Source of the DNA: Bacteroidota bacterium
GTDB taxonomy: Bacteria; Bacteroidota; Ignavibacteria; Kryptoniales; JAKASW01
Reading direction: 5' to 3'
Assembly: GCA_021789755.1 (NCBI GenBank)
Contig: JAJYJD010000003.1
Location: 1-34,455 of the forward strand
DNA: 34,455 nt
In this document: positions 11,274-32,284 of the stretch, piece after piece
Position numbering within the stretch: position 1 is the stretch's first letter
How the letters are laid out: the number at the start of each line of letters is the position of its first letter
Made by a program: the position numbers and the translations under genes
Notes under the pieces: generated by a model
Database searches by the model: none
What the model saw: the letters and a program-made list of their open reading frames with translations, nothing else
What the model was told of the DNA's origin: nothing

Positions 11274-11354
11274 CAGTTTTCGATCCTTTCCAATAGCCTG
11301 GCGGCAGGCCATGTACATTTGTTTCGTGCTGTCATATTTTCGACCTCATAACCA

Positions 11355-13161: not shown

Positions 13162-13341
13162 TTAAAATTGCTCCATTCTTATTTTAACGAGGGCAATAGT
13201 TCAATAATGTTCACATAATTTGGAGAAATCGTGCTTCCCGTCATCGGGAAAGCGCGACAGATGAAAGTTTCAAACTTGCCTGCATGGGTTATCCCGATGC
13301 GACACACGAACCTTTCAACAGCCGAGACATTTGTCGAACTG

Positions 13342-13822: not shown

Positions 13823-13858
13823 AAAAAACCCGTCTCAGTAAAGCGTTACGAGACGGGT
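13823..13858 (-). terminator. Intrinsic terminator after the polysaccharide-lyase operon
   Basis: On the minus strand ACCCGTCTC pairs perfectly with GAGACGGGT; the inner bases GTAA and TTAC extend the stem past a one-base bulge. The stem is followed directly by TTTTTT. It lies about 110 bp after the stop of the heparinase-family gene, so it ends the long glycan operon and separates it from the pseudogenes. Confidence 0.88.
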
Positions 13859-13968: not shown

Positions 13969-16900
13969 TCAGAATTGTATCTCCAAGGAGTTTGATCCCT
14001 TGGAAAGAACAACTTGAATCGATTTTCCAACCTCTTTGACCCCTTGTTGCAGTCTGCCATTAAGTGTTATGGAAGTCGGTTCGGACTCAAGAAGGATCGA
14101 TGCTCTGCATTCTACGTTACTGTTAATTGTCCACTTCTCTCTTGTTGCGACACGCCTCACGTTGAAGGTCACGGGGGCATCAGCTGTGATCAGCTCATTG
14201 CCCTTATACCCGAAATAGGTGGCCTCGGAAGCGGCAAGATGCGATAGCCTTTGGTTTTGCAGTGAGACCTCCGCAATCTTGCCATCAGTGACAACCTTTT
14301 CAGCTGCCATGTTCGCGCTACCGGTTTTGAAAAGCAACGCATCGACGCCGTTATCCATTCTAACGCTAACCCCCACACAGCCGCTGCCGTTTATCTTTTT
14401 GATGTTCTTGGACATCACATTAACATCACCCTCACCCTTCACCGGATAAAGTACCGTAAGGAAATTCTCTTTTCGGCCTTTCTTTGAATTGCTGACTTGA
14501 ACGTACCCGGGCTCGCGTAACGGCGGACCAAACCGGGTCGGAGCTCCGCAGATTGTCAGGTTTGGATTTTCCGGATAAACCACCCGGGCAAATAGAGAAG
14601 CTTTGTCAGTTTTGAATGTAAACACGTTGCTTTGCTTCAAACTAACCTCCTTACGATTGCTGAAGTGAAACAACAGATCGTACTGGTGAGGCGCTCCGGA
14701 GGATTTCAGTTTGTCAAAGATCACAAAATACTTTCTATTCAAGAAGATGATGTTTCTCTGGAACTCCGCCAGTTTTCCGTAGTACAGGTCTGCCAGTTCG
14801 CCGGTAACAGACGAATAGTCGTCCGTTGATATGAAGTCGGTTATTCTCGCCATCCTATTGGCGGATTTTATGAAATGTGGATAGTCCCCGCTTTCCTGAG
14901 ATCCAGCGTCTTCATCCACAAGCACAGTATTATGTCCAGCCGGCTCGATATAGTACCCTTGGTACCACGGGTCAGCGTAATAATTTACGTCGCCAGCTTC
15001 AGGCACTAACGTTCTGCCAAACGCGTTCAATTGAAAGCTTCCCTGATCGTAATGTTCATGGTTGTACCAGGGACCACACCTGAAATTCATCACTACGTCA
15101 TCAGGCGACCAGCCTGACCTGAATACAACGGCGCCCAGCTCAGGGAATTCCTTTGACTTCGGAAGGGATGTCGGGGGAGTCTCAACACCGGAATCGCTGC
15201 CAAACATAAAATCCAGGACATTATTGCGGGGACTCTTCATATACAACCATTGGAATGACGGATCGTTTGAGTGAGTGGAAAGCCATGAAAACGATGACAA
15301 AGTGCTCAACTCCGGATGACTGTCACCGTTATCCAGTATTCGTGGATCAGAATAATTGTAAAGGAAGTACTTATAGGAATTGAGTAGTCCTTTACTCGCT
15401 AAATCGATTCCAAGTACATGTCGGATGGCCGAGATCGTCGGTAAATCATTTCCAAATGCGAAAGCCTGGTAGCTTATTCCTTCCCCCCACGCTCCTGTGG
15501 TGTCCAAAGTATTATCAAGATACATCTGGAATTTCTTTAACAACCCGGAGAGGTACGGCTCAAGATCACCCAACTTCGGATCGTCCCCATATATGGCGAG
15601 CGCGCAACAGATCGCACCACCCACTGTGTTTCCTATCCAGTTGGTCGTTGCGGAGGGTGTCCTATCGTGCAATACATATTCCTCATAGGCAGGTATGATG
15701 CAATCTTTCAGCAAACCTTCGCTGACTTCGTCTCTCTCTCTGGGGTTCATCAGCGGATAGACCATATCATAACAAAAAGCCGCCCGCATGCCGAGTTCAC
15801 CCATTGGGTAATACGTTTCCCTGTGACGAGCCCGAAACCATGGATGGTTCCAGGTCTTCCATTTTGCGATCCTAACTAATGCCTCCTTCGCATATTCACC
15901 AGCTGATGTATCGCCGGTGAGCGCGTAGACTAAAGCGTTGTCGCGCAAAATCTTTTCGGCGGATTCCATTATGCTGAAATAATGCGACAGCGTGGGTATT
16001 AAGTACACGGAATCTAAAACCGCAAAGTTGACATTCGACAAAGAATCTAGTCCGAGTTCCCTCGGCGGAACTTCTCTTAGGCTTGAACTTTCGGAGCCGA
16101 ATTTTATCGACCTTACTATAGATGTTTCTCTGGACTTTGCGGCTTCTTGGACAAGAGAATCCCACCAATTCTGCCAGTGTTGGGTCCCGATTTTCTCTTT
16201 ACAATTATCAATTTCTCTCTGTCGGAAGAAAAGCCTCGGATGCTGCAAATTCTCTTCTGCCAGCCACAGGTTGAACTCAGTCTCAACCCTTTTTCCGGTG
16301 CGATTTTCGCCATCGATCTTCACAGCCCACTGGCCGGGCGTATCGTGACGCGAGAAAGTGTATACGTTCTTCTTCGTCCAGGAATTATCGGTCGAGTTAA
16401 AAAAGAGGGCGGCATCCTTCTGGATTGTTTTGCCATCCGGACTGATAATGCTGACATTCACTTTAGATAGTTTCACCCCGCTTGGAAGCTTTGCAGATAG
16501 ATCGACGTGTTCCCCCGGAGTGTAGTGGTGCAATGGAACTATTAACTGAAGATTCTTCAGATAATATGACGCAGGCTCTCGTATCTCGAACTGCACAGCT
16601 TCACGGGCAGTAAGGTGAAAATCGCTTAAGAACAATCTGTAGGTAACATCAGGGTTGGTCTTGGGGATGTCAGTCGTTATCGAAAAGCCATCGATACCGG
16701 TGCCTGGCATCATGCCGACTCGCAAGAAGTTGAAATCGGAGAGGCCTACAGTGATTTTGTGCCACTCCCTGTCGTCGCTTATGGAGGTATGGTAAGAATA
16801 CTGTTTCCCGTCAGAGCCGTATAATATAAGAGTCATACCTTTGAAGTCGCCATATCCATTCGCCTTATAATAAAAGGAGGCTCTTGTGGTAGCATCGGCA

Positions 16901-17232
16901 ATGAGCGATAGTTTACTTACAAAGCCCATCTTATGTTCCGTAACTAAGGTGGGTCGGTATTCTACCATTAGTGAATACTCGCTGTTGGTCGGCCCGCTGA
17001 TCGCTTCACAGTGAAAGTACGGATCAAAACCTGTGTCTTGAAATGGAGGATAAGATTCCCAGCCGCTTACATTTCCTTCCTTGAAATCTACTTTGTAGAT
17101 TACCTTTTTAGTTATCATCGAATAGTCTCTCTGGTTAAGCTTGCTCATAGGCCCTTGAGCCGCTACCGGGCTATAAACCGGCTGAAAAAGGAAAAGCAAG
17201 AATAATGTAGCAAGCCTCATTTTATTACGCAT
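13969..17232 (-). CDS. Heparinase II/III-family polysaccharide lyase with N-terminal beta domain
   Basis: A large exported protein (about 1087 aa) expected to cleave uronic-acid glycans by beta-elimination. ATG 17232 is chosen because GGAG lies nine bases upstream and it gives a signal peptide (LATLFLLFLFQPVYSPVAA). About residues 35-220 form a beta-rich, CBM-like domain ending TYRLFLSDFHLTAREA. An alpha-toroid follows (HPRLFFRQREIDN, TNWIGNTVGGAICCALA, GEGISYQAFAFG), resembling the DUF4962/alginate-lyase fold with a candidate catalytic Tyr in ISYQ. The heparinase II/III beta-sandwich follows with NHEHYDQGSFQLNAFGRTL, matching the family HxHxDxGxF metal/catalytic segment, and GHNTVLVDEDAG. 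The usual Asn-His pair of PL15/17-type lyases is replaced by NWIGN. No T9SS tail is seen. It is the last gene of the operon; the substrate is unknown. Confidence 0.85.
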   Translation of the reverse strand: MRNKMRLATLFLLFLFQPVYSPVAAQGPMSKLNQRDYSMITKKVIYKVDFKEGNVSGWESYPPFQDTGFDPYFHCEAISGPTNSEYSLMVEYRPTLVTEHKMGFVSKLSLIADATTRASFYYKANGYGDFKGMTLILYGSDGKQYSYHTSISDDREWHKITVGLSDFNFLRVGMMPGTGIDGFSITTDIPKTNPDVTYRLFLSDFHLTAREAVQFEIREPASYYLKNLQLIVPLHHYTPGEHVDLSAKLPSGVKLSKVNVSIISPDGKTIQKDAALFFNSTDNSWTKKNVYTFSRHDTPGQWAVKIDGENRTGKRVETEFNLWLAEENLQHPRLFFRQREIDNCKEKIGTQHWQNWWDSLVQEAAKSRETSIVRSIKFGSESSSLREVPPRELGLDSLSNVNFAVLDSVYLIPTLSHYFSIMESAEKILRDNALVYALTGDTSAGEYAKEALVRIAKWKTWNHPWFRARHRETYYPMGELGMRAAFCYDMVYPLMNPRERDEVSEGLLKDCIIPAYEEYVLHDRTPSATTNWIGNTVGGAICCALAIYGDDPKLGDLEPYLSGLLKKFQMYLDNTLDTTGAWGEGISYQAFAFGNDLPTISAIRHVLGIDLASKGLLNSYKYFLYNYSDPRILDNGDSHPELSTLSSFSWLSTHSNDPSFQWLYMKSPRNNVLDFMFGSDSGVETPPTSLPKSKEFPELGAVVFRSGWSPDDVVMNFRCGPWYNHEHYDQGSFQLNAFGRTLVPEAGDVNYYADPWYQGYYIEPAGHNTVLVDEDAGSQESGDYPHFIKSANRMARITDFISTDDYSSVTGELADLYYGKLAEFQRNIIFLNRKYFVIFDKLKSSGAPHQYDLLFHFSNRKEVSLKQSNVFTFKTDKASLFARVVYPENPNLTICGAPTRFGPPLREPGYVQVSNSKKGRKENFLTVLYPVKGEGDVNVMSKNIKKINGSGCVGVSVRMDNGVDALLFKTGSANMAAEKVVTDGKIAEVSLQNQRLSHLAASEATYFGYKGNELITADAPVTFNVRRVATREKWTINSNVECRASILLESEPTSITLNGRLQQGVKEVGKSIQVVLSKGSNSLEIQF

Positions 17233-17304
17233 CGCTCTGTTCTCCGGAAGAATAGCCGAGATCTGCGGCTCACCACGGTGGTGAGTCGCAGTCTTCGGCA
17301 AAGG

Positions 17305-19146
17305 TCACTTAAGCAACATCATTTTTTTCGTCAGGACATTTGCTCCCTGCCGGAGTGTATAGAAATAGACTCCGCTAGCGTAGCTGTTCATGTTGACGTT
17401 GAACGTGTAGGTGCCGGCGGGCCTGTAACCGGAGTCGACAACTTTGACAAGTTGACCAAGAACATTGTAAACTTTCAGGCTCATGACACCTGCCCGGTTT
17501 ACACTGACTCTAATGTCGGTTGACGGATTGAAAGGATTCGGATAGTTCTGGCTTAGTTCGAACTTTGTCGGGACCTGGGATGCAGCTGATCTGACCGCGT
17601 TGACACCACCACCTTCCCATTCCTTCATTTGGCTCGGGAACCAATTAAGGTCTCCCAACGCATAGCTGTTCGTGCCAGCTGATTGGAGTGTCGCGTCCGA
17701 ATACGCTAGGTTCTCGGGTAATGGCTGAGTAGGCGGATACACAGATCCTGTCGGATCGTACCACCACAAGTATTTTCCCAGACCCTTAGTTTTGCTCAGG
17801 TATACATAGTGGTCCAGACTATCTACTTGACCCATTATGGACGAGGAGAAACCGGGATCGACGCTGATATTTCCTGTATCTTCGAAGTACGGATACCTCT
17901 TGGTGGTCGGGAAAGTGTTCACTATGCTGGTGGTATCAGAAATGATAGTTGTGTCCGTACTTACTGTAGTGTCGGCGGCAAGAGTGGTATCGGGCACAAA
18001 AGAAGTATCGGCCGCATAGAAAGTCGTGGTGTCCACGACTGTATCTGCTGACGAAGTAGTGGTGCCATTTATTATTATAGTGTCCTGCGTGATATGATGC
18101 GTCGAAATCGACATGAAGGTAGTATCATTGAACATTACCTGGGTGAAGGGGGTCATCCAGCCGGGAGGAGTTATTGAGTCGGCGACTGAGGTTGATGTGT
18201 CATTTATAGAATTCCAAAAGGCTTGCATCGCCTGTGGCCAGTAATAATCGTTGTTATCTAGCGTGATGTGTCTTTCTGCCTCCGTTATGCCGTATGTCGT
18301 TCCGATCGCGCCGAGACTACCCAGACCTATCACTGGAATGCTTCCCGAAGCATCGGTTCCATAAAAGATGTTGTTGGTAATCGTTGCCTGTGTGAGGTAC
18401 GTAATATACATGAGGTGTGCGCCGCTCAGGAAGATAGTATTGTGGTCGAAATCCAGAAAATTATTGTAGTAGACGTTTGCAAGTGCGTAGCCCTCATTAC
18501 AGAATATTGTGTTGTTTACGATATAAACGGTGTCCGTAGGAATCTTGCCTGGGGCAAACAAAACATCCCCGTAGTAGAACGAGGTGTAATCTTGTTGATT
18601 CCTGAACACGTTGTTGGTCAGCCAGTAGCTATTCCAATTTCCGTTCGACCAAAAAGCCGCTTCGGTCCAGCCATCAAATACGCAGCTGTCCGCCGTTATA
18701 TCCAAGCTGTCTCCCGTAACGAAGATTGCTTTACCCGGTCTGACTGGGGCCTGGTCCGGCGCAACGCCGAACAAGTACAGTTGTCTAAGGGTGAGACTTC
18801 CGCTTTCAAGGTTAATGAAAGTATTCGGACGGGAGTTATCTAAGAGGATGGCTGGCTCTATGACGGGCAGTGCTCCCTTGCCGGGGCCGGCCACTATAGT
18901 TAGCGGGAAGTTCACGTTCATCGTACCGGTGAAGAAATAGATCGAGTCTTTTGACAGTTCATACACTCGATTGGGATTCACTCTTGCACCGGTGGCCGTG
19001 GTATCACCCATAATGAATGTGTTGATGCTGCCCGGCGGCATGGCCGGAACCATGACAGTATCCGCTGCCTGGGAAAATGCGCTCGCCGGCCTTTCAACCA
19101 GGATCGCAATCGGCACGATCAGCAAGGTTATGAGTAATCGTTTCAT
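17305..19146 (-). CDS. T9SS-exported beta-helix-like surface protein
   Basis: A secreted protein of about 613 aa. ATG 19146, with AGGAAG upstream, gives the signal peptide LLITLLIVPIAILVERPASA; the ORF track start at 19185 is too early. The N-terminal half has repeating short strands with Asn-rich turns (DSLDITADSCVFDGW, YWLTNNVFRN, VYIVNNTIFCNE, LDFDHNTIFLSG, ATITNNIFYGT). These are typical of a right-handed parallel beta-helix as in pectate-lyase-like proteins. A low-complexity Asp/Thr-rich stretch (ADTTVSTDTTIISDTTS) follows. The C-terminus is a canonical type A sorting domain: FELSQNYPNPFNPSTDIRVS ... GVYFYTLRQGANVLTKKMM. It is therefore exported by the type IX system and likely anchored on or released from the surface. 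Catalytic residues cannot be assigned. A glycan-binding or lyase role is inferred from its place in the operon. Confidence 0.82.
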   Translation of the reverse strand: MKRLLITLLIVPIAILVERPASAFSQAADTVMVPAMPPGSINTFIMGDTTATGARVNPNRVYELSKDSIYFFTGTMNVNFPLTIVAGPGKGALPVIEPAILLDNSRPNTFINLESGSLTLRQLYLFGVAPDQAPVRPGKAIFVTGDSLDITADSCVFDGWTEAAFWSNGNWNSYWLTNNVFRNQQDYTSFYYGDVLFAPGKIPTDTVYIVNNTIFCNEGYALANVYYNNFLDFDHNTIFLSGAHLMYITYLTQATITNNIFYGTDASGSIPVIGLGSLGAIGTTYGITEAERHITLDNNDYYWPQAMQAFWNSINDTSTSVADSITPPGWMTPFTQVMFNDTTFMSISTHHITQDTIIINGTTTSSADTVVDTTTFYAADTSFVPDTTLAADTTVSTDTTIISDTTSIVNTFPTTKRYPYFEDTGNISVDPGFSSSIMGQVDSLDHYVYLSKTKGLGKYLWWYDPTGSVYPPTQPLPENLAYSDATLQSAGTNSYALGDLNWFPSQMKEWEGGGVNAVRSAASQVPTKFELSQNYPNPFNPSTDIRVSVNRAGVMSLKVYNVLGQLVKVVDSGYRPAGTYTFNVNMNSYASGVYFYTLRQGANVLTKKMMLLK

Positions 19147-19301
19147 GATGGTTCTCTTCCTTTCTGTTGTGGTTAAGAAACTCAAAGGTCACCCGCAAGA
19201 AAGCTTCTGACACAATGCTCACAGTTTAAAGGCGATGTTGCTCACTTATTCAAGCTTACCCCCGTTATCAGTTCGCGCTCGGGAATTTCAAAGCAAGTCG
19301 T

Positions 19302-20381
19302 TTATTTGCCGTGACTCAAAATGTGTCGGCTGCAAAACTTCTTCACCAATTCATAACGTCTCGTATCACGATATGGTGTACGGAACACAAGAACGGCGCC
19401 CGCTTGTCTGTAGGCTATTTTCATTGCTTCTTTCAAATAAGATGGAGTTGCCTCTCTGGACCATGACGAATGAGGAGTGAAATAGATGCAGGGTATGAGG
19501 ACTGCCTCCGGGAAAATCTTGGCGAATTCATTGATATTCCCGGGAAGGCTTGCAGAAGACATGCCATATTCTGGAGACAGACTGGCTTTGTGCTGGTATC
19601 CCCATTCCACAGCGTTAACGTATGGCATGTAAGGGCGAATCTCTTCCATGTTTTTCAGCTGGTTCTCATAAATGGTAACCCCCAGTAAGAGATTCCGGTT
19701 TTCCCTTTCTAGAATTGCGTAAATCTTTTTGACGTAGTCGGGAGTGAAATAATTCGTGTTGTAGAGAAAATCGTCGATCATCAACAGCGTGAGATTGTGA
19801 TGGGTCCTGGAAACCCGTCCGATTGCTTTCGCCCACTTTTGATAATTGAGCCTGTACGGCGGATACCGCATTCTCGAGCCATGCTCCAATCCTGGTTCTT
19901 CACTTGGCGGCACCAATACGACCCATACTTCCAAATGAATCTTCGATGCAAGGTGGCAGAATTCAGGGAGGGCATCGAGTTCCGCCGCCGAATGGCTGTC
20001 TATCAGGTAGCTGTAACAGTTGACTCCGAGATCTTTGAGCCTGTCGATCATCTCTTTGATTCTCGGTTTTCCCTGTACGTCGTACTTCATTCCTGCATAT
20101 GCTGCAACCCTTCGATGTCCGGACGGAAACAGTCTTCTCATACGCATGAGCGCGGCAACGTGCTCTTCGTTTTGTTTCGTTATTGTCTGTGAGCTGCGGT
20201 CGGGCGTTTGAAGCTTATCTATTGTCCCCCCGTTCGCATATCTCTCGATATTGACATGAATCGATTTCAGGTTTGCCGCTGAAGCTTTGATGGGACCACG
20301 GGCAAATGCGGTCATGGCATTCGAACTCGTCAGTAGACCGGTGATCATGAAGAGATATAGCAAGTAACTAATTGATTCCAT
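19302..20381 (-). CDS. Secreted TIM-barrel-like protein, putative glycoside hydrolase (short form A)
   Basis: A 359-aa protein with a hydrophobic N-terminus (YLLYLFMITGLLTSSNAMTAFA) suggesting export. No named family was recognised. The pattern of strands ending in acidic residues suggests a (beta/alpha)8 barrel: RVAAYAGMKYD, LGVNCYSYLIDSH, LEVWVVLVPP, LTLLMIDDFLYN, LLLGVTIYENQL, VNAVEWGYQHK, VLIPCIYFTPHS, AGAVLVFRTPY. The IDDF and YENQ elements on successive strands could hold acid/base residues. The same order of motifs occurs in the lipoprotein at 23381-24652 (IIIDDFFEN, VVVYEDQL, GVYFKN, GGALLFSAPW), so the two are probably distant paralogs. An AGGAA ribosome binding site precedes the ATG. 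It lies 60 bp after the TonB receptor. Function as a glycan hydrolase is inferred. Confidence 0.7.
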   Translation of the reverse strand: MESISYLLYLFMITGLLTSSNAMTAFARGPIKASAANLKSIHVNIERYANGGTIDKLQTPDRSSQTITKQNEEHVAALMRMRRLFPSGHRRVAAYAGMKYDVQGKPRIKEMIDRLKDLGVNCYSYLIDSHSAAELDALPEFCHLASKIHLEVWVVLVPPSEEPGLEHGSRMRYPPYRLNYQKWAKAIGRVSRTHHNLTLLMIDDFLYNTNYFTPDYVKKIYAILERENRNLLLGVTIYENQLKNMEEIRPYMPYVNAVEWGYQHKASLSPEYGMSSASLPGNINEFAKIFPEAVLIPCIYFTPHSSWSREATPSYLKEAMKIAYRQAGAVLVFRTPYRDTRRYELVKKFCSRHILSHGK

Positions 20382-20441
20382 GTGAGTTGGGTTCCTAAGT
20401 AAAGTGACGCCTGAGGATAGACGCAGCTGTCAATAGAGCTG

Positions 20442-23342
20442 TCAGAAGCTCGTCTCGAGTCCAATGTCGGCGGTCATGCCGTATGAATTCTCCGATTGCG
20501 GAAAACTGGATCCGCCGTTTAGATAGAGATCCTTTGCGCCGTTAATGTTGTTCATATCGAAGAAGAGCCGGAGATGATACCAGGGAAGCCCCTGTTTGGC
20601 GGCGAGGTCCCACCTGAGATAGTTTGCCCCGTACTCTCTTAACTCAGACCAGAATTCAGCTCCCTGAAAGACGTTCGACTGGAACAGCATTGAAACGCGA
20701 ATCGAGAATTCCTTGTAATCATACCCGATGGCCAGGTTGGCAATGTCATCAGGCTGGTAAATCAAACGATCTGTATAGAAGGTATCGTTTACGACCTGCT
20801 GGTATTTCGGCAGGTAAATGGTAGTCACTGTCGTGAGGGGATATTTGGCGCGCGAAAAGATATGAGTAAAATTCGCACTTAAGACTAAACCCGACAATGG
20901 ACCTGGGAGATACCAGAAGTGAGTTTCCCAATCAATTTCAGTCCCATACAGATTGACAACGTTCGGGTTGTTAATTGATGTTGATAATGGTTCCCCTTTT
21001 GTGTTGCTCGGTATCCCCGGATAATCTGCCGGATTCACTACGTAAGTGTTCACCGGAAATATCAGGTTGCGAATATGCTTGAGGAAACCGTCGACCGTCA
21101 GTAAACCGACTGTGTTGTTATAAATCGAAAGAATGGCGTCGTAGTTGGTCGAATGTGCTGGTTTAAGAGCGTAATTGTGCCAGACCACGCTCTGGTACCC
21201 GATGTTGATCCTTGGTGTGATAGCATCAAAGGACGGGTATGTAAGAGTATTCGTGTAAGCCAGGTGAATCTGCATCCATGAAAGTGGCTTGACAATCAAG
21301 TGTGCCATCGGAAGCCAAAAACCGTGCGTCTCTTCAATGGTGGTATCATGGTACTCATAAGAAAGTGGTGTCTGAGTTCCCCTTGGAGCTGTATACGAAG
21401 TTGAGAGCTGCTGGAACCTTACCCCTGGCAGGATAGTCAAGTCCTGACCGATGCTCAGCGTATACATGATGTAGGCAGCACTCTCTCGCTCAAAGCCATT
21501 ATAGTTGTTGGTGGCCGATAAGAAATCATTAGTCGCCACATCGGTCTCATAGTCGTATGATTGCGGAGGTGGTGACTGATTAATGACATTCATTACCTGG
21601 TGCATCAGGCCGATGTTCAAGGGCACCCCCATGCCATATTGACCATTCAGAAAGTTCCCATAGCTAAAGTTTGGATCCTCAAAGAGGGTAATCGGTAAGT
21701 ATATACTCCCTGAAGGAACGGAACTCTGCATCCACGGAAAGGCATTCAGGATTGCTTGAATGGTTGTATCGATTCCGTTTATTTGGAAGCGGTTAGCCTG
21801 ACTCAAGTAATTATAAGATTTTGTAGTGTATCTGTATGCCCCGCCGAATTTCAGAATGCTGGTAATATCTCTCGAAAAATTGATGTTTGACAGGAAATCG
21901 ACTTGTGCCGAAAGCTGACGGTTTCTGGACAAGCTGCTCGACTGCAGGGCGGATTGAAAATCGGTTTGTGATAGATCGTTCTTCGCAAGTGTCGGAATAA
22001 CCTGTGGACTCAAACGTTGATAGTTGGCATTGTTCAGGCCGACATCGGTTTGTTCAAAGCTGAAAGTCAAAAGGTTCGGTACTGAGGTCTGAGAATAGGA
22101 GTGAGCAAACTTTGCATCTACAGCGAACAGCGGGAATATTTCTTTGATGTCAAGGAGATTTGTGATGATGTCAAGAATACTGTTCTCGTCCGTCGCACTG
22201 TAGCTGTGAGTATTATTCACCAGATCGTAGTTCTCGTTTCTTATTTGTTCGTTTGTGTTGCCGGAACTCAGGAAGTTCATGAGCTCCACCTTAAGTGTGG
22301 GACGCTTGTAATCCATGACCACCTCAGCGCCGTAACGTTGCCTGTATCTAGGTATATCGGTCAGGCTTAAGTCCTGCATGTAGACCGGGTTTGGTTTCCC
22401 TAGTTGGGGTGCGTTCAAGTTGTAGGTTGCACCGAGTTCATTTGCGGTTAGATTGCGTCCCTCAATATTTGCCTCAGCAAATACTCCGAACCGATTGTTG
22501 AAGAAGCGGGACTCCGCGGTGCCTACCACCTTGTAGTTGGAATGCGTGCCGATCAAGGCATTGTACCCGCCCTGCGCCAGCAAGGAGGTCAGGATGCCTT
22601 TTTTTGATTCCCGAGCTTCCCTGAGTTCGAGATTGACAATTCCACCAACGGCTGCCGCGTCCATGTCTGGCGTAATCGCTTTGATCACCTCTATCCCCCC
22701 GAGCATGTTCGAGGAAATATCGCTCAAGTCGACTGCGCGACTCGATGAAACGTTTGGCGGAACCTCAATTCCATCGATCGTAATCTCGTTGTACTGCGGT
22801 GCCAGTCCTCGAATAACAACTTGCGCCCCTTCTCCGCCTTCCCTCACGAGAGAAATCCCTGGGAGCCGGCCAATCGATTCTGCCGCATTTGCATCGGGAA
22901 GTTCACGTATTCTTGCCGCTGAGACGACGTTCATTATCTGCTCGGATGAAAGCTGCTGGTTTATAGCAGAATTCTGACCGGCAGCCTGCGCTGTCACGAC
23001 CACTTCTTTCCCCTTCACTCCGACGGCATGCAACCCGAAGTCTCGCCTTGTTGTGTTATTTGAAGAGACTTCGATACTAAACTCCTGATTGCCATAACCC
23101 ACATAGGAGGCGCGCAATTTGTACATGCCAGCAGGCACATCGTTCACCACGAAGTGGCCATCATCGTTTGACACCGCACCCATGCTCGTTCCGACGAGAA
23201 GGACATTTGCACCTATGAGAGGTCTGCGTGTTTGAGCGTCCCTGACGTACCCTTCAACTATGCCGCTTGATGCAAAAGCCAAAGATGGAACTGAACTCAC
23301 CGCTAACACCGCCAGGATCAGGGGAAGAATTTTTCTATGCAT
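20442..23342 (-). CDS. TonB-dependent outer membrane receptor with regulatory-like N-domain
   Basis: A 966-aa outer-membrane receptor that would import a ligand, here probably oligosaccharide, with energy from TonB/ExbBD. After the signal peptide (ILPLILAVLAVSSVPSLAFA) comes a carboxypeptidase-regulatory-like beta-sandwich (GIVEGYVRDAQTRRPLIGAN ... YKLRASYVGY). A plug domain follows (INQQLSSEQIMNVVSAARIR, ESIGRLPGISLVREGGEGAQ, VVIRGLAPQYNEITIDGIEV). The remainder is a long barrel ending in an aromatic residue (GLETSF). The plug wording (IRELPDANAAESIGRLPGI) resembles the TonB-Xanth-Caul type rather than SusC, and no SusD-like gene is next to it. A GAGGG ribosome binding site precedes the ATG. 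It follows the lipoprotein gene by 38 bp within the operon. Confidence 0.93.
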   Translation of the reverse strand: MHRKILPLILAVLAVSSVPSLAFASSGIVEGYVRDAQTRRPLIGANVLLVGTSMGAVSNDDGHFVVNDVPAGMYKLRASYVGYGNQEFSIEVSSNNTTRRDFGLHAVGVKGKEVVVTAQAAGQNSAINQQLSSEQIMNVVSAARIRELPDANAAESIGRLPGISLVREGGEGAQVVIRGLAPQYNEITIDGIEVPPNVSSSRAVDLSDISSNMLGGIEVIKAITPDMDAAAVGGIVNLELREARESKKGILTSLLAQGGYNALIGTHSNYKVVGTAESRFFNNRFGVFAEANIEGRNLTANELGATYNLNAPQLGKPNPVYMQDLSLTDIPRYRQRYGAEVVMDYKRPTLKVELMNFLSSGNTNEQIRNENYDLVNNTHSYSATDENSILDIITNLLDIKEIFPLFAVDAKFAHSYSQTSVPNLLTFSFEQTDVGLNNANYQRLSPQVIPTLAKNDLSQTDFQSALQSSSLSRNRQLSAQVDFLSNINFSRDITSILKFGGAYRYTTKSYNYLSQANRFQINGIDTTIQAILNAFPWMQSSVPSGSIYLPITLFEDPNFSYGNFLNGQYGMGVPLNIGLMHQVMNVINQSPPPQSYDYETDVATNDFLSATNNYNGFERESAAYIMYTLSIGQDLTILPGVRFQQLSTSYTAPRGTQTPLSYEYHDTTIEETHGFWLPMAHLIVKPLSWMQIHLAYTNTLTYPSFDAITPRINIGYQSVVWHNYALKPAHSTNYDAILSIYNNTVGLLTVDGFLKHIRNLIFPVNTYVVNPADYPGIPSNTKGEPLSTSINNPNVVNLYGTEIDWETHFWYLPGPLSGLVLSANFTHIFSRAKYPLTTVTTIYLPKYQQVVNDTFYTDRLIYQPDDIANLAIGYDYKEFSIRVSMLFQSNVFQGAEFWSELREYGANYLRWDLAAKQGLPWYHLRLFFDMNNINGAKDLYLNGGSSFPQSENSYGMTADIGLETSF

Positions 23343-23380
23343 TATGCCCTCTTGAAATAGATAATGATTATCCGATCACG

Positions 23381-24652: not shown

Positions 24653-24719
24653 TTTGGACACCACCGGATTGTCATCACAAAATGAAAAGGTTCTCCAAAG
24701 TCGCGCTATCATAGTGGCT

Positions 24720-26921
24720 TCATCTCCCTGTATGATCAGACATGTCAATCAACCTGTAGCTGCGAGGCATGACTTGTATTTTGAGTGCTGCGTTATTCTT
24801 CGACTTTGCTATTTCTTTTCCGGCAACAAGATCCTTCCAATTCTGAGTCTCACCTTTATAATAAGGCGTCAACGGCATAAGAGTGATTTCGAGCTTTGAA
24901 TTGTTGTGATTCACCACCGCTGTCACAAAACCCGATCTGGTTTTAGAAACCGCCACGTCGCAATTCTGATTTGTTCCCACGATATCAACATAGCGCTGTA
25001 CCCCGATGTAGTTAAAGACATCGCGCACCAGATATGGGAATTTGCGGGCGGCAGTCTGCGCATCGGTCAGAACAGAGACAACCTTCCCCTTACCATAAGT
25101 GTTCAAGGTTATTGCAGGAGACTCGTCTTCAAACGTCGCAATGACATTTGCGCCCTCAGTTCTCCACACTGGAAGCGTCACTCTCCCAAGCTCCCATTTC
25201 TTGCCAGTAACAGTTCTCTCTCGAAAATCAAATCGGTCGATAATGGCGATATGTGTCCGACTTTTCCCGGTTTTTTCAATCCCAAAGAGAATAGTGCGGT
25301 TGTAAGTCGTGCCCATAGGTATTCTGGGACCGAATGCGACAACTGTCCCTCCTCTCTCAAGAAAATGCTTCATCAACTCGCTGTCGGTTTCATTTAGACC
25401 CGATAGACTCGGGAACACCAACACTTCTTTTGCTTTTAACATCTGCGTCAAGGCACGTGAATTCGCGCGGACCGGGTAGTACGGTGGGTAAGATTCTTCA
25501 TGAAATGGCGCCCATGGAAGAATGTCCACCGGGATTCCCATTGTCCTAAATGCATCAAGGGCACTGTAATAATCGCGTTCCCATCTATATTCCTGGAAGT
25601 CTGTCCAGGGAATATAGACTGCCAGTTGGTTCCGGTGTGCGGAAGCATTACCGATCAAATCAAATGCCTTCATCCCGTCAAAAACTGCGTCGCGGCTCCG
25701 ATCAAACTCCTGTCGGTACTGGGGATATCGCCTGAGGGTATTGTAAATAACCCCGCTGTAATTGAACATTATAATGCCATCGTTATGCGGAACCGTCGCG
25801 GCGCTCATGAATTGCTGATAGATGTTGTTGTAACTTGCGATGTACAAATGCTTCAGGGCGTTCTCCAGGTAACCGAAAAGTTCAACATGAGTCAAGACGA
25901 TTTTGCTTTGAAGTTCAGATGCACCCGACGCAATTGAGCCGAAGTCTTTGACCCTCCTGAAAGGAAATTTGATGCGGTTATCAGGTCTGTAACTAGCCAT
26001 TACCATTCCCTGGTATATTATTATGTTGAGACTCCTGATAGCGCTGAGGTAACCGGCAAGCAATGGATTATCCGTATACGGAGCACAAGCAGTGAGCAAT
26101 CCGGGATTTACTTCCTTGACATAGTCGCAGAACTCTCTCACGTATGTTGCATAGTATATTCCACTCCCTTCCTGATACGAGTAGAACCCAACAAGAGAAG
26201 GATGGCTTCCATACAGGCTGTAGAGTTCTTTGATGATCTCGTGCGTGCTCTTCATTCGTTGAGGAGGCGGGATCACTCTGGTCATGTCCCAGCTGACCGA
26301 TAGCACGACCGAAATGCCGTTTTCATCTGCGCATTTCAATAGACTGCTTAGGTAACTCTGGTCGATTGGAGAGGAACTATCCATGTTGCAGATTTTCGAT
26401 CTGTAGTAAACCCTGCGGGGGGTGATTATCGTATGAGCTATAAGAAAGTTCGCCCCGAAGTTTTTTAACTCGCCGATGTATTTGTCCATATCGGATTTGA
26501 GACCCTTCGGATCGAAGACTCCGATCATACAGAAATCCCCGATGATCTTCTTGAACAGGAACACTGCTTTTCCTATAGCCGCCGGTCTGGCCCTATCGCC
26601 TACCCAGGCCTGAATTGCATAAAGTCCTTGTGGACCATTTCTTCTGATAATGAAGTGCGAATCATAAACGGAAGTTTTCACTTTTTTCAGGCAGAGTGGA
26701 ATTGCACCTTCGTCGGGGATAAGGATCACAGCGTTGAGCGGGTTCTCATCCGCAGATTCAACCACGATGTTCACAGTGTCTCCGATAGTCACTTCGGATG
26801 GGGTGACCGAGATCTTGATAACTTCGCCCGATGCTTTCATCGCCGGAAGAGCAGCGATTAGAATTGCAGAAATAGCGATGAGCCTGAAAAGGAAGCGGGT
26901 TGGCGTACTTTCAGATATCAT
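24720..26921 (-). CDS. Secreted DUF4434-like TIM-barrel / trimerisation-fold protein
   Basis: About 733 aa. ATG 26921 overlaps the stop of the epimerase gene as ATGA, a sign of translational coupling, and gives a signal peptide (RLIAISAILIAALPAMKA). A small beta domain comes first (IKISVTPSEVTIGDTVNIVV). A TIM barrel follows with GVFDPKGLKSDMDKYIGELK and FGANFLIAHTIITPRRVYY, as in DUF4434 proteins. It continues with GISVVLSVSWDMT, HPSLVGFYSYQEGSGI, NIIIYQGM and GIIMFNYSGVIY. The EGSG element could hold a catalytic Glu. Next is a Rossmann-like domain resembling the GH42 trimerisation/GATase fold (NQLAVYIPWTD, KEVLVFPSLSGLNETDSELM, GGTVVAFGPR), then a beta-sandwich tail. A glycoside hydrolase role is inferred. 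The second large protein of the operon has the same layout. Confidence 0.72.
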   Translation of the reverse strand: MISESTPTRFLFRLIAISAILIAALPAMKASGEVIKISVTPSEVTIGDTVNIVVESADENPLNAVILIPDEGAIPLCLKKVKTSVYDSHFIIRRNGPQGLYAIQAWVGDRARPAAIGKAVFLFKKIIGDFCMIGVFDPKGLKSDMDKYIGELKNFGANFLIAHTIITPRRVYYRSKICNMDSSSPIDQSYLSSLLKCADENGISVVLSVSWDMTRVIPPPQRMKSTHEIIKELYSLYGSHPSLVGFYSYQEGSGIYYATYVREFCDYVKEVNPGLLTACAPYTDNPLLAGYLSAIRSLNIIIYQGMVMASYRPDNRIKFPFRRVKDFGSIASGASELQSKIVLTHVELFGYLENALKHLYIASYNNIYQQFMSAATVPHNDGIIMFNYSGVIYNTLRRYPQYRQEFDRSRDAVFDGMKAFDLIGNASAHRNQLAVYIPWTDFQEYRWERDYYSALDAFRTMGIPVDILPWAPFHEESYPPYYPVRANSRALTQMLKAKEVLVFPSLSGLNETDSELMKHFLERGGTVVAFGPRIPMGTTYNRTILFGIEKTGKSRTHIAIIDRFDFRERTVTGKKWELGRVTLPVWRTEGANVIATFEDESPAITLNTYGKGKVVSVLTDAQTAARKFPYLVRDVFNYIGVQRYVDIVGTNQNCDVAVSKTRSGFVTAVVNHNNSKLEITLMPLTPYYKGETQNWKDLVAGKEIAKSKNNAALKIQVMPRSYRLIDMSDHTGR

Positions 26922-28297
26922 TTCTGATTCACTGCTTCCGCTGCTCCTGGCCACGCTGGTCGCCCGCCATTGTTTTCCAATTTCTCTAATGCCAGGTATG
27001 TCAGCATGAGGTGGCGGGGCAAATGATAGTTCTCTATGCGATCGTAATGTGGCGTGAAAGTGACCTTCCTATCCGCTGCAGTGATCCATAAATGGTATCC
27101 GAATGGCTTGAGCCAATATTTGGCAACCATATACTCATACGTTTTCGCAAACCATTCTTTTGCCCACTCGTCCCCGGACTGCTCAATGAGAACCATCATG
27201 CCGTTCAATGCCTCCTCCTGCGCCCAGAGGACCTTTGGAGTCCTTTTGATTTCCCACAGGTCCAGATCCACGTTATTCAAGCTCCTGAGAACTCCCGAGT
27301 AAACCTGGTCCCATGCAACTTCCACATGGCGTTTGAATCTCTCCGCCGCGGTCCGGAACAATTTCAAATCCTTGGATCCGACCGCCTCTTCCATAATCGG
27401 TCGAAAGGTCTCGATAGAATGGCCTGTGTAGACAAACTCGGACAGATAATTGTCGGGACGCGAATAGTCGTGGTTGAGAAGCTCATTGTTTAGTCTGAAC
27501 TCGGGGTTGAAGTGTTTGCTTAGGACGGCATCAATGCACTTCGATCTTATCTCCTCCAGGTCTGGATCACTCCGGTGCTCAAGCATCCCATTGATAGTGG
27601 TGAGCATTACCATTGCAACACCCTGGATTCTGGCTCCTGGAAACGGGATCACTTTGGGGCCGGAATAGTCCGCCACAATTCGTGGATAATAGTCGGGGCG
27701 ATTATAGATCTTCCAGCATTTTAGGATGATCTCTTTCGCGGTGTTCCAGTATTTTTGTTCGCCTGTAGCGAAAGAATACTCGCTCAAACCCTCCGCAACG
27801 AAAACACTTCCATAAATTCTCTTTGAAGGTGGCGTAAGTGGTTTGCCTTCGCGAGTGATAACGGAAGGCCAGAGACTGTCCCCGGTGGGCTCGGTCTTCA
27901 TTATCAGCTTCAACGAGTTGGTCGCGACATCGAGGTATTTCTCGTCGTTTCCGAAATGCCTGTAGAGGAACGAGTAGACCCAGATGCCCCTTCCTTCGAA
28001 CCAGGTGCGCTTCTTTGTGTTGAGCCTCGTTCCGTCCCTGTCGTCGTTACACATGAAACCGCCGTACTTATGGTCGATCACGTACTTATCCATGAAGGGA
28101 AGAAAGTCTTCAAAAAGGTAGTAGTGATAATCATCACGGAGTTTCTTTAGAGACAGATCGCCGATTTTTAGCTTTGTGGTTCCGGAATCCATTCTCCGCC
28201 GGTCTACGGTGACTCTCTTCAACAAACTTTCGCTGCCAGAGTATTTGGCGGCCAGAATACTTCCGATTGAAGCAGCAACAAACTTGCGCCTGTCCAT
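26918..28297 (-). CDS. AGE-family sugar epimerase/isomerase, probably exported
   Basis: A 459-aa alpha6/alpha6-barrel protein of the N-acylglucosamine 2-epimerase (AGE) group, which includes cellobiose 2-epimerase and mannose isomerases. Visible family elements are GGFMCNDDRDG, RTWFEGRGIWVYSFLYRHFG, SVFVAEGLSEYSFATGEQKY, FVYTGHSIETFRPI (the GHxxE active-site segment), LWAQEEALNGMMVL and FGYHLWITAADR. The C-terminal HYDRIENYHLPRHLM matches the catalytic-His helix. The N-terminus MDRRKFVAASIGSILAAKYS resembles a weak Tat-type leader (RRKF), so it may act in the periplasm. GGAG precedes the ATG. The stop overlaps the next gene's start by four bases. Epimerisation of released sugars is the likely role; the exact substrate is unknown. 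Confidence 0.82.
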   Translation of the reverse strand: MDRRKFVAASIGSILAAKYSGSESLLKRVTVDRRRMDSGTTKLKIGDLSLKKLRDDYHYYLFEDFLPFMDKYVIDHKYGGFMCNDDRDGTRLNTKKRTWFEGRGIWVYSFLYRHFGNDEKYLDVATNSLKLIMKTEPTGDSLWPSVITREGKPLTPPSKRIYGSVFVAEGLSEYSFATGEQKYWNTAKEIILKCWKIYNRPDYYPRIVADYSGPKVIPFPGARIQGVAMVMLTTINGMLEHRSDPDLEEIRSKCIDAVLSKHFNPEFRLNNELLNHDYSRPDNYLSEFVYTGHSIETFRPIMEEAVGSKDLKLFRTAAERFKRHVEVAWDQVYSGVLRSLNNVDLDLWEIKRTPKVLWAQEEALNGMMVLIEQSGDEWAKEWFAKTYEYMVAKYWLKPFGYHLWITAADRKVTFTPHYDRIENYHLPRHLMLTYLALEKLENNGGRPAWPGAAEAVNQK

Positions 28298-28332
28298 CTT
28301 TTATCGCTCCATTTCAAAAGCGTGTGTTGAGA

Positions 28333-28363
28333 GGAACACCGCACGGCTTGCTGCCGGTGTTCC
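28333..28363. repeat. Intergenic hairpin GGAACACCG-N13-CGGTGTTCC
   Basis: Perfect nine-base arms around 13 bases, in the 101-bp gap between the 958-aa protein gene and the epimerase gene. There is no T-run after it in the minus-strand transcript, so it is not an intrinsic terminator. It may be an mRNA processing or stabilising element that lets the two halves of the operon be expressed at different levels, or a protein-binding site. Confidence 0.55.
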
Positions 28364-28398
28364 AACCCGGCATAACCTAAGACGATTAGAGTGCAGCT

Positions 28399-31263
28399 TT
28401 ACTTTGTGCTTCGCAGCGAGTCCGTCGGCGAAAAGGCGCGAGAGGGCACCTCTCTGACATCAATCTTCGCTAAAGAGATTTGCGGAATACAGAATTCCGC
28501 AAGCGCATCTACATTACCTGTGCCGTCAGCGTTGACAAATTCGCCACCGTGCAAGACACAATCGAGCGTGTCGCAGGATTGAGATACCGGTATTTCGGAA
28601 ATCGATTTGAAGTACGATCCGTTCCAGACTTGTATTTTGCCGTGGTAGTCTGATTTGTAAACCATTCTTATTTCATAATTAGCATGAGTGTTCACACCGT
28701 TTATCCAGAAGCGGGGTCCGCCTGCGAGAGTTGAATATTTTCCTGTTCGAAATGTTATCCCGTTATCCGACTGCGGAGCGGACCACTGACCATTGTAGTA
28801 GAATGAAACACCCGGATCGTGGTCGTACTGATTATTATCGATATAGGCAATTCCGCTATATCGAAGTTTGCCTGTTTCTCCGGCAGCCACCCCAATCCAT
28901 TGATATCCGATTTTTCCTCTAGAAGGCATCGGGGTCGGAGCGACTTGGCCTTGCATGATGATCCTTGGCTTCCCGTTGACGGGAATGAACATTTCGCGTT
29001 GCGTCAGGCCTAAAGTCGTGAAGTGAATAAAGTAAGTATCGTGTTCGACGTTTTTCGGCACAGTCAGATAAAACCAGAACGTGTGCTTTTCGCCCGGTAA
29101 CAGTTTATAAGGTTCTCGCACGGAGGTTGTCATGTGACTCCATTGCTCAGGCAACGTCATAGTCAGAGTGTCGCTAATTGTGGCATCCAAAGCATTGAAC
29201 AATGTGACTGAAACTCTTTGTCTGCTACCAACTAGTACATTTCGCGATGATTCGTCGGGGTGAAGAAGCGGAAAAGTGTTGTTGGACATTACCAAGGCAC
29301 CGTAATTCTTGATCCGTGGCAGACGAAGAATGATGTTACCACCTCTAACTACGGGCTTTATGGCACAGAGTCTGTTGTTGTCAAAATAGACTGCAAACCT
29401 CCTCTTCATACTCGAGGGAAGTTCCAACTCCACGTGTCGCGCACTACTGCCCTTCTTGCTTCCAAGGATTAAGAACAAAGAGTGCGAATATCGTCCTTTC
29501 GTCTGATACTGTTCGAATGTATAGCTGTGCGGTAAATTCCGGATCTTCACAAGCATGTCCATGTGTTCTCTAGCAAGAAGAGGTAAGATCTCTGCAAGGA
29601 ATTGAAGATCACCGGGAATGATGTAGAGAATTCCCTTTCCCAAGTGGCGCAGCAATACGGCTGGTTTTCCATCCGACCATCTCGCCAGTACTAAATCTCT
29701 CGGTTCAGCATTCAATTCGAACCCGTTGGCTAATATCTCCTTCTCTCTTGTAAAGGCTGACATCCGAGACAAAAAATGTAATGTATCCTCGACGTAGTGA
29801 GTGTAATCGCATCGCAACAATTTCTGATAATCAGGCGGGATTTGATCTTCCTCGTTTCCAACAGTGTACTTTGACAGCTTGAAATCGAAATCATCATTCG
29901 GATTAGGAATGATGTTCGTCTTCGGGTCAAGCACAGAAATCAGCGTACCACCATCTTTAAGGAACCTGGTAATCGAAGATATTTGTTTTTCTGACAGTCC
30001 GACCGGCGAAGGTACTATCCAGATCCTACTGTGGACGTTTCCAAGATTAGCCGCAAATGCTTGTGGAACGTGGGCTATTGCGAGAGGTGTCCAAGCCATG
30101 TTGACAAAAGCTGTCCCGCCCAATCCCGTTTCCCTGGGAATGACTGTAGTTACCGCAGCTACCAACTTCGAACCTGCATAATACGGGACATACCTCTGGA
30201 CACTCAGCACACCTTTGCACCATGCAGCCCAACGCCAAAATGCATTTCTGTGTGTCAGAATATCATAGCCATTGAAGAGATCAAAGTAATTGAAAAAGTG
30301 AATTCCACAAGTTGTTGCCGTCAGCAGGACCCCCTGTGACACTCGATAGACTTGATCTTTCGGTATGGCACGCTCTCCGTATCCATTCATGTAATGGGTA
30401 TGGACTATTGTTTTTACGCGGTCCGACAGACCCTGAACGAAATCGGTTAGCCCGCGAAAACCCTGCATTTCCCGATAATTGGACAAAAAGTAGCTGAACT
30501 CGGAAAAATTCCCGATATAGAACTGTACGTTTTCGATATTTACTCTACCGGAGTGAATATGATTCAGGATCGTTCTGACCACTTCAGCAAACGGTCCGTT
30601 TGGAAAATCCATTACTGTCATATCGGGGTTAATCCTTAATGCAGTCTGGGCTAACTCCGAAAACTCATCGGCATTGAGATTCGGCGATCTGGATTCCACC
30701 GGTGGTACAAAGCCTCTGAATGCTGGATATTTCTTAAACCGTTCTACCATGTCGGTAGTGATGTCGTTTAGATAATCGAAGTATCTCCTATTGGACAATC
30801 CGTCTGGGACCAAAGCTAATCCGAGATATCCAGACATATGATGGGTTTCACATTCATCGAGAAAGTCCTTTACTGGATTGCGTCCGAGCCAAGGCTTCAC
30901 CTGAGGTTTTAGTTTCGGGTTGTCGTTCGGGTAGACCGATCCATTGTTCCTGTATACGTATGCGTAGGTGAGCATATTGATGCCGACTTGTTCTAATCTC
31001 GTAAACAGTCTGTCCCTCATCGCACTGGTTGAAATATCCCAAGCCGGGCGAGAACGGGGCCCATCCTTGGGTGCAGATCCCCAGTAAAACGACCCGATAT
31101 AATAAGGTGGAACGGGTAACGGTGAATTAACAAGCATCTTGTCAATATGATTATCACCGGATGAAGGAGGAGTTGATGACGCCGCCGGTGAAGATTGGCG
31201 AGCAGAACATTTGGGAGCAGCAAAGAGGGATAACCCCACAATTAATGAAGCGAGCGCCTTCAT
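28399..31263 (-). CDS. Large secreted TIM-barrel protein with GATase-like and beta domains
   Basis: About 954 aa. Two starts are possible: TTG at 31275, which would overlap the RraA stop by four bases, and ATG at 31263 (MKALASLIVGLSLFAAPKCS); both give a signal peptide. The barrel part includes PPYYIGSFYWGSAPKDGPR, VGINMLTYAYVYRNNGS, SGYLGLALVPDG, FRGFVPPVESRSPN (candidate catalytic Glu), MTVMDFPNGP, VKTIVHTHYMNG and TCGIHFFNYFDLFNGY. A GATase/trimerisation-like domain follows (SRIWIVPSPVGLSEKQISSI, DGGTLISVLDP, GKGILYIIPGDLQFL), and then Ig-like beta domains (VSVTLFNALDATISDTLTMT). Near the C-terminus is a beta-sandwich resembling a sugar-binding module (GGPRFWINGVNTHANYEIRM). The layout parallels the 733-aa DUF4434-like protein. 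Glycan hydrolysis is inferred from fold and context. Confidence 0.7.
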   Translation of the reverse strand: MKALASLIVGLSLFAAPKCSARQSSPAASSTPPSSGDNHIDKMLVNSPLPVPPYYIGSFYWGSAPKDGPRSRPAWDISTSAMRDRLFTRLEQVGINMLTYAYVYRNNGSVYPNDNPKLKPQVKPWLGRNPVKDFLDECETHHMSGYLGLALVPDGLSNRRYFDYLNDITTDMVERFKKYPAFRGFVPPVESRSPNLNADEFSELAQTALRINPDMTVMDFPNGPFAEVVRTILNHIHSGRVNIENVQFYIGNFSEFSYFLSNYREMQGFRGLTDFVQGLSDRVKTIVHTHYMNGYGERAIPKDQVYRVSQGVLLTATTCGIHFFNYFDLFNGYDILTHRNAFWRWAAWCKGVLSVQRYVPYYAGSKLVAAVTTVIPRETGLGGTAFVNMAWTPLAIAHVPQAFAANLGNVHSRIWIVPSPVGLSEKQISSITRFLKDGGTLISVLDPKTNIIPNPNDDFDFKLSKYTVGNEEDQIPPDYQKLLRCDYTHYVEDTLHFLSRMSAFTREKEILANGFELNAEPRDLVLARWSDGKPAVLLRHLGKGILYIIPGDLQFLAEILPLLAREHMDMLVKIRNLPHSYTFEQYQTKGRYSHSLFLILGSKKGSSARHVELELPSSMKRRFAVYFDNNRLCAIKPVVRGGNIILRLPRIKNYGALVMSNNTFPLLHPDESSRNVLVGSRQRVSVTLFNALDATISDTLTMTLPEQWSHMTTSVREPYKLLPGEKHTFWFYLTVPKNVEHDTYFIHFTTLGLTQREMFIPVNGKPRIIMQGQVAPTPMPSRGKIGYQWIGVAAGETGKLRYSGIAYIDNNQYDHDPGVSFYYNGQWSAPQSDNGITFRTGKYSTLAGGPRFWINGVNTHANYEIRMVYKSDYHGKIQVWNGSYFKSISEIPVSQSCDTLDCVLHGGEFVNADGTGNVDALAEFCIPQISLAKIDVREVPSRAFSPTDSLRSTK

Positions 31264-31271
31264 CTTAAATT

Positions 31272-31940
31272 TCAAAGGACCTCGTATTTTCTCCAGACTT
31301 CAGCCATGGTTCGACCCGCTGCCAATTCCTTTCTTACAATATTCTCAGTATTGATTCTCTCGACCACTTTTTCCACCACGTCTTTCTCAAGCTCCCTGGG
31401 AATGACCACTGTTCCGTCGAGATCCGCAAAGATCAGATCACCCGGAGAAATACGAACGCCACCGATAATGATTGGAATATTGTAATTGGTGACTCTTGCT
31501 CTCCCGGTGGTGTCTATCGGTGAAGGTCCCCACGCGAAAGTAGGAAACTTCATTCCTATTAATTTCCTGACATCCCGACTATAACCGTTGACGATCGCGC
31601 CACGACATTTCCGAGCAAGGAGAGCGGTAGCTGTCAGTTCACCCATGATCCCGACATCAAGATTGTCGCTTCCAGTCGTTACTAAGAGTGAGCCCGATCC
31701 GAGGGAATCTATACATTTGATGACGGTATCATAAGGTTCTTTCTCATTATCATCCTTCTCATTCAGCAAAGTCACAGCTCTTCCGGCGGCAACAAATGTG
31801 TTGTCGAGCGGACGAATCCCGGAATGAGGTGAAACGACCCGAAAGCGTTGCCCTATTTCGTCAAGGATATCGGAAAACACACCCGCATAGGCGTTCGCTT
31901 CGAGATAAGAAAAGAGTTCAGAGTCAGATTCAAAGTCCAT
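31272..31940 (-). CDS. RraA-family protein (HMG/CHA-type aldolase or sugar-acid enzyme)
   Basis: A 222-aa cytosolic protein of the RraA/LigK fold, a family holding the RNase E inhibitor RraA and metal-dependent 4-hydroxy-4-methyl-2-oxoglutarate-type aldolases. Family motifs are FSDILDEIGQR, GELTATALLARKCRGAIVNG with SRDVRKL directly after, FPTFAWGPSPIDTTGRARVT, GGVRISPGDLIFADLDGTVV and IP. The conserved Arg-Asp pair of the aldolases is present (YSRDV). An AAGGTGA ribosome binding site precedes the ATG. As first gene of a glycan operon it is more likely to cleave or process a sugar acid than regulate RNase E. This is inference. It is transcribed from a promoter about 300 bp upstream. Confidence 0.85.
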   Translation of the reverse strand: MDFESDSELFSYLEANAYAGVFSDILDEIGQRFRVVSPHSGIRPLDNTFVAAGRAVTLLNEKDDNEKEPYDTVIKCIDSLGSGSLLVTTGSDNLDVGIMGELTATALLARKCRGAIVNGYSRDVRKLIGMKFPTFAWGPSPIDTTGRARVTNYNIPIIIGGVRISPGDLIFADLDGTVVIPRELEKDVVEKVVERINTENIVRKELAAGRTMAEVWRKYEVL

Positions 31941-32217: not shown

Positions 32218-32254
32218 TCACATCGTTTCACATTGTGAACCGCCATCTCACATT
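32218..32254. promoter_or_regulatory. TGTGA-box cluster at the promoter start site
   Basis: Three related boxes lie in 37 bp: TCACAT (32218-32223), the palindrome TTCACA-T-TGTGAA (32227-32239), and ATCTCACATT (32245-32254). They cover the region from the edge of the -10 box to about +30 of the predicted start, a position typical of repressor operators. The same core recurs in the inverted repeat at 32365-32393. Confidence 0.5.
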
Positions 32255-32255
32255 C

Positions 32256-32284
32256 AAGATACAATACAATCCAGGTGTTGTCAA
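32256..32284 (-). promoter_or_regulatory. Promoter of the glycan-utilisation operon
   Basis: Minus strand: consensus TTGACA (-35, 32284-32279), exactly 17 bases, then TATCTT (-10, 32261-32256). TATCTTG also partly resembles the TAnnTTTG -7 element of Bacteroidota promoters. Transcription would start near 32249 and run leftward into the RraA gene after a leader of about 300 nt. Confidence 0.6.

Follow-up and report, generated by a model that had tools for sequence, protein, structure and literature searches.

A SusD-less glycan locus of a Kryptoniales bacterium and the linkage of its TonB-dependent receptor to a secreted β-helix protein

Which protein accompanies the TonB-dependent receptor of a glycan locus that encodes no SusD? 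The question is raised by nine consecutive leftward genes (13969–31940) of a Bacteroidota bacterium of the Kryptoniales (GenBank assembly GCA_021789755.1; 3.48 Mb in 372 contigs, 93.8% complete). The window analysed here, 34,455 nucleotides in length, is one whole contig of that genome (JAJYJD010000003.1, C93 in our numbering). A first-pass annotation of the window had described these open reading frames (ORFs), all nine of which we find at those coordinates, as a SusD-less locus in which the receptor is partnered by a lipoprotein. Our comparison of genomes supports a different partner, the β-helix protein encoded at 17305–19185, which carries a sorting tail of the type IX secretion system (T9SS). 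On balance we favour the view that the nine genes form one half, cell-surface and periplasmic, of a polysaccharide utilisation locus (PUL) for an acidic polysaccharide, with the β-helix protein as the receptor partner that replaces SusD.

Families were assigned to the nine proteins with Pfam and NCBIfam profiles and their curated cut-offs. The receptor scores 331.6 bits with TIGR01782 (TonB-Xanth-Caul; cut-off 310) and 54.6 bits with the SusC profile TIGR04056 (cut-off 368), so it is not SusC-type, as the first-pass annotation had maintained. The claim that the locus lacks SusD also stands: none of the nine proteins matches a SusD family in Pfam, and the two that were modelled are a β-helix (17305–19185) and a barrel (the lipoprotein), so a SusD hidden in the locus was rejected. 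A search of the genome with PF07980 found nothing, and genus-mates gave few matches, mostly weak. The genome as a whole is not SusD-free, since one SusD-like_2 gene lies on contig C33 beside a different TonB receptor.

Linkage of the receptor and β-helix genes

In 100 relatives from 51 genera, separate searches with the receptor and with a β-helix profile picked out an identical set of 27 genomes, which belong to 13 genera. No more than eight candidates per genome were scored in the receptor search, which therefore favours the nearest receptors. Among its 125 matches, 93 have a β-helix match on the same strand no more than 3 kb downstream (median gap 157 bp); when the remaining receptors were fetched, 13 more had a β-helix partner and one further case was truncated, and eight lie too close to a contig end for judgement. 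In all, a β-helix homologue is directly downstream in 107 of the 117 assessable receptor relatives. A separate set of named contigs overlaps some of the same genomes (the related named records are metagenome-assembled genomes labelled Bacteroidetes, Ignavibacteriae or Kryptoniota); scanned with a narrower β-helix set, it has an adjacent receptor at 60 of 63 β-helix genes. Across the phylum the β-helix family is found in 49 of 396 genomes (33 of 171 sampled genera), with six matches in the genome studied here, and a receptor adjoins the β-helix gene in 12 of 13 distant picks. One member, from Balneola (L123, on the same contig as L156), lacks a receptor in its locus, where the gene upstream encodes an enzyme of the Lyase_1 family.

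The pairs head clusters of carbohydrate-active enzymes (CAZymes) in Ignavibacteria-like and Rhodothermus-like genomes, and are also present in Latescibacterota, KSB1 and Marinimicrobia. The gene order is reversed in four of the five Latescibacterota loci (L083, L084, L087 and L101), where the β-helix gene comes first and overlaps the receptor gene; the fifth locus ends at a contig edge. The pair has no other constant neighbour; the genes downstream encode GH18, GH2, GH94, GH53, GH26 and GH92 enzymes, AGE-type epimerases and sorting-tail proteins. Distances among receptors agree with those among their partners (r = 0.946, 64 pairs), and the agreement for paralogues of the same genome (r = 0.971) was equalled in none of 2000 within-genome permutations. 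Linkage alone can give matched distances, and the result therefore shows that the pairs duplicate and travel as units. The broader proposal, that a TIGR01782 receptor and a T9SS β-helix protein form a second, SusD-independent glycan-capture pair across the groups just named, the helix being held by its GDLNWFP docking segment (below), seems to us evenly balanced.

The first-pass description of the 17305–19185 product as a T9SS-exported, β-helix-like protein is borne out by its sorting tail and its predicted structure. It has the features of T9SS type A cargo, in that the tail scores 42.6 bits with TIGR04183 (cut-off 23) and sprA has a match on contig C28 of the genome. The AlphaFold2 model is a right-handed β-helix followed by the sorting domain, with a mean pLDDT of 79.9 and values above 90 over most of the helix. 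Apart from a weak β-helix match, no family in Pfam or NCBIfam covers the protein. The solved structures nearest to the model are PL6 alginate lyases and other β-helix lyases, with low TM-scores. In an alignment of 64 members a GDLNWFPxQ segment that lies between helix and tail hardly varies, and of the helix's basic positions just two, both Arg, are kept in more than 85% of members; no Lys is widely kept. The comparison with the catalytic Lys/Arg pair of PL6, which covered fold and residue conservation, comes to a match in fold, two kept Arg and no widely kept Lys. The nearly invariant segment and the paucity of kept basic positions lead us to read the protein as a putative binding helix that adapts to the substrate and carries a fixed docking segment, and it is plausible that GDLNWFP is the docking site.

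Genes of the proposed operon and their conservation

Two genus-mates, G009 (contig C41, receptor 90% identical) and G011 (contig C83, 89% identical), retain all nine genes in unchanged order, together with the glyoxalase, Gfo/Idh and dehydrogenase genes upstream. A third (G002, contig C45, 72–73% identity) has seven genes complete, the 28399 gene cut by a contig end, and an inserted member of the α-mannosidase family GH125. In a more distant genome (L068) the RraA-like enzyme, receptor, β-helix protein, barrel-lipoprotein homologue, barrel and lyase recur in a different order, with GH3 and Nramp-family genes; another locus (L066) combines four homologues of the lipoprotein with a GH84-type protein and an Nramp-type gene as in L068. 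The Nramp-family transporter genes (L066:14941–16209 and L068:11612–12883) lie beside barrel proteins and are odd companions for a glycan locus. The first-pass view of a coherent SusD-less glycan locus thus holds, the set, order and upstream genes being kept in two genus-mates, most genes in a third and a core in L068, and the locus is best read as a PUL. The lyase and a GH42-like protein are clustered with the transporter in the window, as are GH125 and GH3 in related loci. The elements of the window locus, in order of transcription, are:

34128–34454, − strand: Zn-dependent dehydrogenase, cut by the contig end (PF00107; complete gene in G009)
33071–34087, − strand: Gfo/Idh/MocA oxidoreductase of the upstream block (PF01408; retained in G009 and G011)
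32641–33027, − strand: glyoxalase-like protein of the upstream block (PF00903; retained upstream in G009 and G011)
32256–32284, − strand: promoter-like element TTGACA-17-TATCTT, 5' of the first gene (10 of 12 consensus matches; block kept in G009 and G011)
32225–32241, no strand: palindrome GTTTCACATTGTGAACC, candidate operator, 5' of the first gene (block kept in G009 and G011)
31272–31940, − strand: RraA-like aldolase-family enzyme, the operon's first gene (PF03737, 106 bits, cut-off 24.5)
28399–31275, − strand: secreted 958-amino-acid protein without known family (no profile or PDB match)
26918–28297, − strand: AGE-type N-acylglucosamine 2-epimerase (PF07221, 67 bits, cut-off 23.4)
24720–26954, − strand: GH42-like secreted barrel protein (PF08532 trimerisation-like domain, 31.2 bits, cut-off 25.8)
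23381–24652, − strand: surface lipoprotein, barrel plus C-terminal CarboxypepD_reg domain (ORF 23381–24748, ATG start at 24652; lipobox LEGC read directly; PF13620, 37.7 bits, cut-off 32.3)
20442–23342, − strand: TonB-dependent receptor of the TIGR01782 type
19302–20381, − strand: secreted protein whose barrel is a homologue of the lipoprotein barrel (no family in Pfam or NCBIfam; found by iterated profile search)
17305–19185, − strand: T9SS-exported β-helix protein, the receptor's conserved genomic partner
13969–17301, − strand: heparinase II/III-type polysaccharide lyase, the last gene (PF07940 C-terminal domain, 61 bits, cut-off 24)
13823–13858, − strand: GC-rich terminator-like hairpin ACCCGTCTC...GAGACGGGT with a T run, 3' of the last gene (read directly)

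Gaps among the nine genes are at most 116 bp and several genes overlap; we infer that they are co-transcribed as one operon. The promoter and terminator scans as a whole were not above chance, and we therefore put weight on conservation and position. The palindrome is the sole such site in the window, where 0.03 would be expected. In G009 the upstream block continues with the Zn-dehydrogenase, an M20 deacylase, a 2-hydroxyacid dehydrogenase and a class III aminotransferase, and divergent to it are an IclR-family regulator, a second Gfo/Idh protein and a sodium:solute symporter; G011 resembles it there in ORF layout, the level at which the two were compared.

Just past the operon's end lies a PfkB-type sugar kinase gene (12000–13190, −) decayed by stops and frameshifts, with an intact stretch at 12745–13161; it has no match beside the locus in G009 or G011. 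Farther on is an efflux-type block (3148–11318, −) of a TetR regulator, an HlyD-type adaptor, three tandem transporters of the major facilitator superfamily and an outer-membrane efflux protein. At about 14000 the GC content shifts from 51–54% on the left to 47–50% across the operon.

The lyase, AGE epimerase and RraA-like enzyme had been correctly named at first pass, each scoring above its Pfam cut-off, and the regulatory-like β domain then noted in both receptor and lipoprotein is the carboxypeptidase-regulatory-like domain common to the two. The lyase has both the PF07940 domain and the Asn/Tyr/His triad of the heparinase II/III type: N554, Y611 and H748 align with N192, Y246 and H401 of GAGase II, a PL35 enzyme whose substrates are hyaluronan, chondroitin sulfate and heparan sulfate. 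Five loci (that of the window and four others) share this triad. The AGE epimerase has a twin-arginine-like N-terminus (RRKF, read directly); its closest solved relative is an N-acetylglucosamine 2-epimerase (E = 6e-30), and it falls below the NCBIfam equivalog cut-off (136.7 against 600). A PHROGs search found nothing.

The first-pass remark that the locus holds several unassigned TIM barrels was right in substance but simplifies matters, the four unassigned proteins falling into two barrel groups. The 19302 and 23381 barrels make one family by iterated profile search, sharing invariant E, DDF and YExQ residues (E114 and D159-D160 among the invariant positions). A distant relationship may link the 28399 protein to the GH42-like 24720 protein, which has a DUF4434 barrel match just under threshold; an hhalign comparison of the two gives E = 7e-4 at a probability of 27%. 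Searches of Pfam, NCBIfam, PHROGs and the PDB gave no credible match for the 28399 protein, and the PDB sequence search gave no credible relatives of the barrel proteins; structural comparison of the barrel model matches many proteins, glycosidases among them. The 28399 gene is present in four of 13 genomes of the genus, and in a phylum sample of 297 genomes both the 28399 protein and the lipoprotein matched only in their own genome. The lipoprotein's homologues in L068 and L066 have a T9SS tail in place of the lipobox, and surface display thus appears to be the conserved feature. Homology of the barrel lipoprotein to the adjoining GH84-type protein of L066 was considered and rejected, the profile comparison having matched the signal peptide only.

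Proposed function and its alternatives

If the nine genes act together, the lyase would cut uronate links by β-elimination, and the surface barrel lipoprotein and secreted barrels would trim the chains. Oligosaccharides would enter through the TIGR01782-type receptor, with which the β-helix protein, at the cell surface, would work as the glycan-capturing partner instead of SusD, its GDLNWFP segment docking on the receptor. Released sugars would be processed by the AGE epimerase, the RraA-like enzyme and the enzymes of the upstream block (dehydrogenase, deacylase and aminotransferase). Surface anchoring, glycan binding, physical docking and substrate are all inferred. The lyase implies uronic acid in the substrate, and the AGE epimerase, M20 deacylase, aminotransferase and GH84-type neighbour (L066) suggest acetamido sugars; an acidic polymer that contains N-acetyl sugars is the probable cargo. 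One of the glycosaminoglycan or bacterial-capsule sort may fit best, a choice we make tentatively and at somewhat less than an even chance. The intact triad of the lyase fits the uronate-containing polymer proposed at first pass.

It is unlikely, though worth keeping in view, that the β-helix protein is itself an enzyme, a lyase or hydrolase of polysaccharides at the cell surface, which supplies the receptor. Its nearest folds and its two kept Arg would suit this. Against it speak the low TM-scores and the lack of a widely kept Lys, many β-helix lyases using Lys or Arg as the base; family members also adjoin receptors in loci whose target sugars differ, a pattern more to be expected of an adaptable binder than of a single enzyme. 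Rather unlikely, too, is a neutral or mixed polymer as the target, with the lyase-like protein as a side activity. The GH125 α-mannosidase of one ortholog locus, the GH3 of L068 and the low similarity of the lyase to characterised members would allow this, but its triad is intact in all five loci, and the epimerase, deacylase, aminotransferase and GH84-type genes point to acetamido sugars. Quite improbable, in our judgement, is that receptor and β-helix genes are adjacent by inherited gene order only, with no functional link: the link spans several phyla in both gene orders and survives many duplications and moves within genomes while every other neighbour changes.

Several observations nonetheless count against the β-helix protein as SusD's replacement in an acidic-polysaccharide PUL. 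Linked genes share history, so that adjacency and matched distances can result from linkage alone and are no proof of interaction; ten close receptor relatives (L157–L164, L166 and L167) have no β-helix neighbour, and their downstream genes share nothing obvious. Two of the nine proteins (19302–20381 and 28399–31275) belong to no family, and the AlphaFold2 model of the lipoprotein gives its barrel, which precedes a C-terminal transthyretin-like domain, at modest confidence.

Comparison with known systems

A published survey found few susCD genes in carbohydrate clusters of Ignavibacteriales and none in Kapabacteria (PMC10576277), which raises the question of how these polymer degraders import oligosaccharides; one SusCDE operon has been described in Melioribacter roseus (PMC3534657). 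In open-access papers we found no description of SusD-less or T9SS β-helix receptor pairs. We regard the pair, a novel form of the outer-membrane unit of PULs, as a more important finding than the locus itself: as a conserved alternative it is a testable answer to the question of uptake in such organisms, and with it annotators would be able to identify PULs that escape searches based on SusCD. It also offers a cultivable test system. In an apparent Rhodothermus marinus genome (G106, at about 1.23 Mb) GH43-CBM6 and CBM4-GH10 genes are followed by a receptor and a β-helix family protein with a sorting tail, an order that matches Rmar_1068–1071 of the described xylan locus Rmar_1067–1081 (PMC6987092). 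Rmar_1071, which that paper lists only as hypothetical and with a sorting domain, apparently belongs to this β-helix family and follows receptor Rmar_1070, as in the window; that locus differs from ours in targeting xylan with GH10 and GH43 enzymes and in also holding a SusCD pair (PMC6987092).

The SusC/SusD-type PULs of Bacteroidota resemble the window locus in clustering a TonB receptor, a surface glycan protein, a lipoprotein and CAZymes, and in the regulator found in relatives of our locus; they differ in that the window receptor is of the TIGR01782 and not the SusC type, has no SusD beside it, and is linked instead to a T9SS-exported β-helix protein. The lyase shares its fold family and triad with PL35/PL21 enzymes (GAGase II, heparinase II), but the similarity is distant (E = 5e-13 at best) and the protein lies far under the HepB/HepC NCBIfam equivalog cut-offs (54 bits against 600 and lower). 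The CUT loci of Proteobacteria have TonB-Xanth-Caul receptors without SusD, and so agree with the window locus in receptor type, in the lack of SusD and in the CAZymes alongside; unlike them, the window receptor has an N-terminal carboxypeptidase-regulatory-like domain and a T9SS-exported partner.

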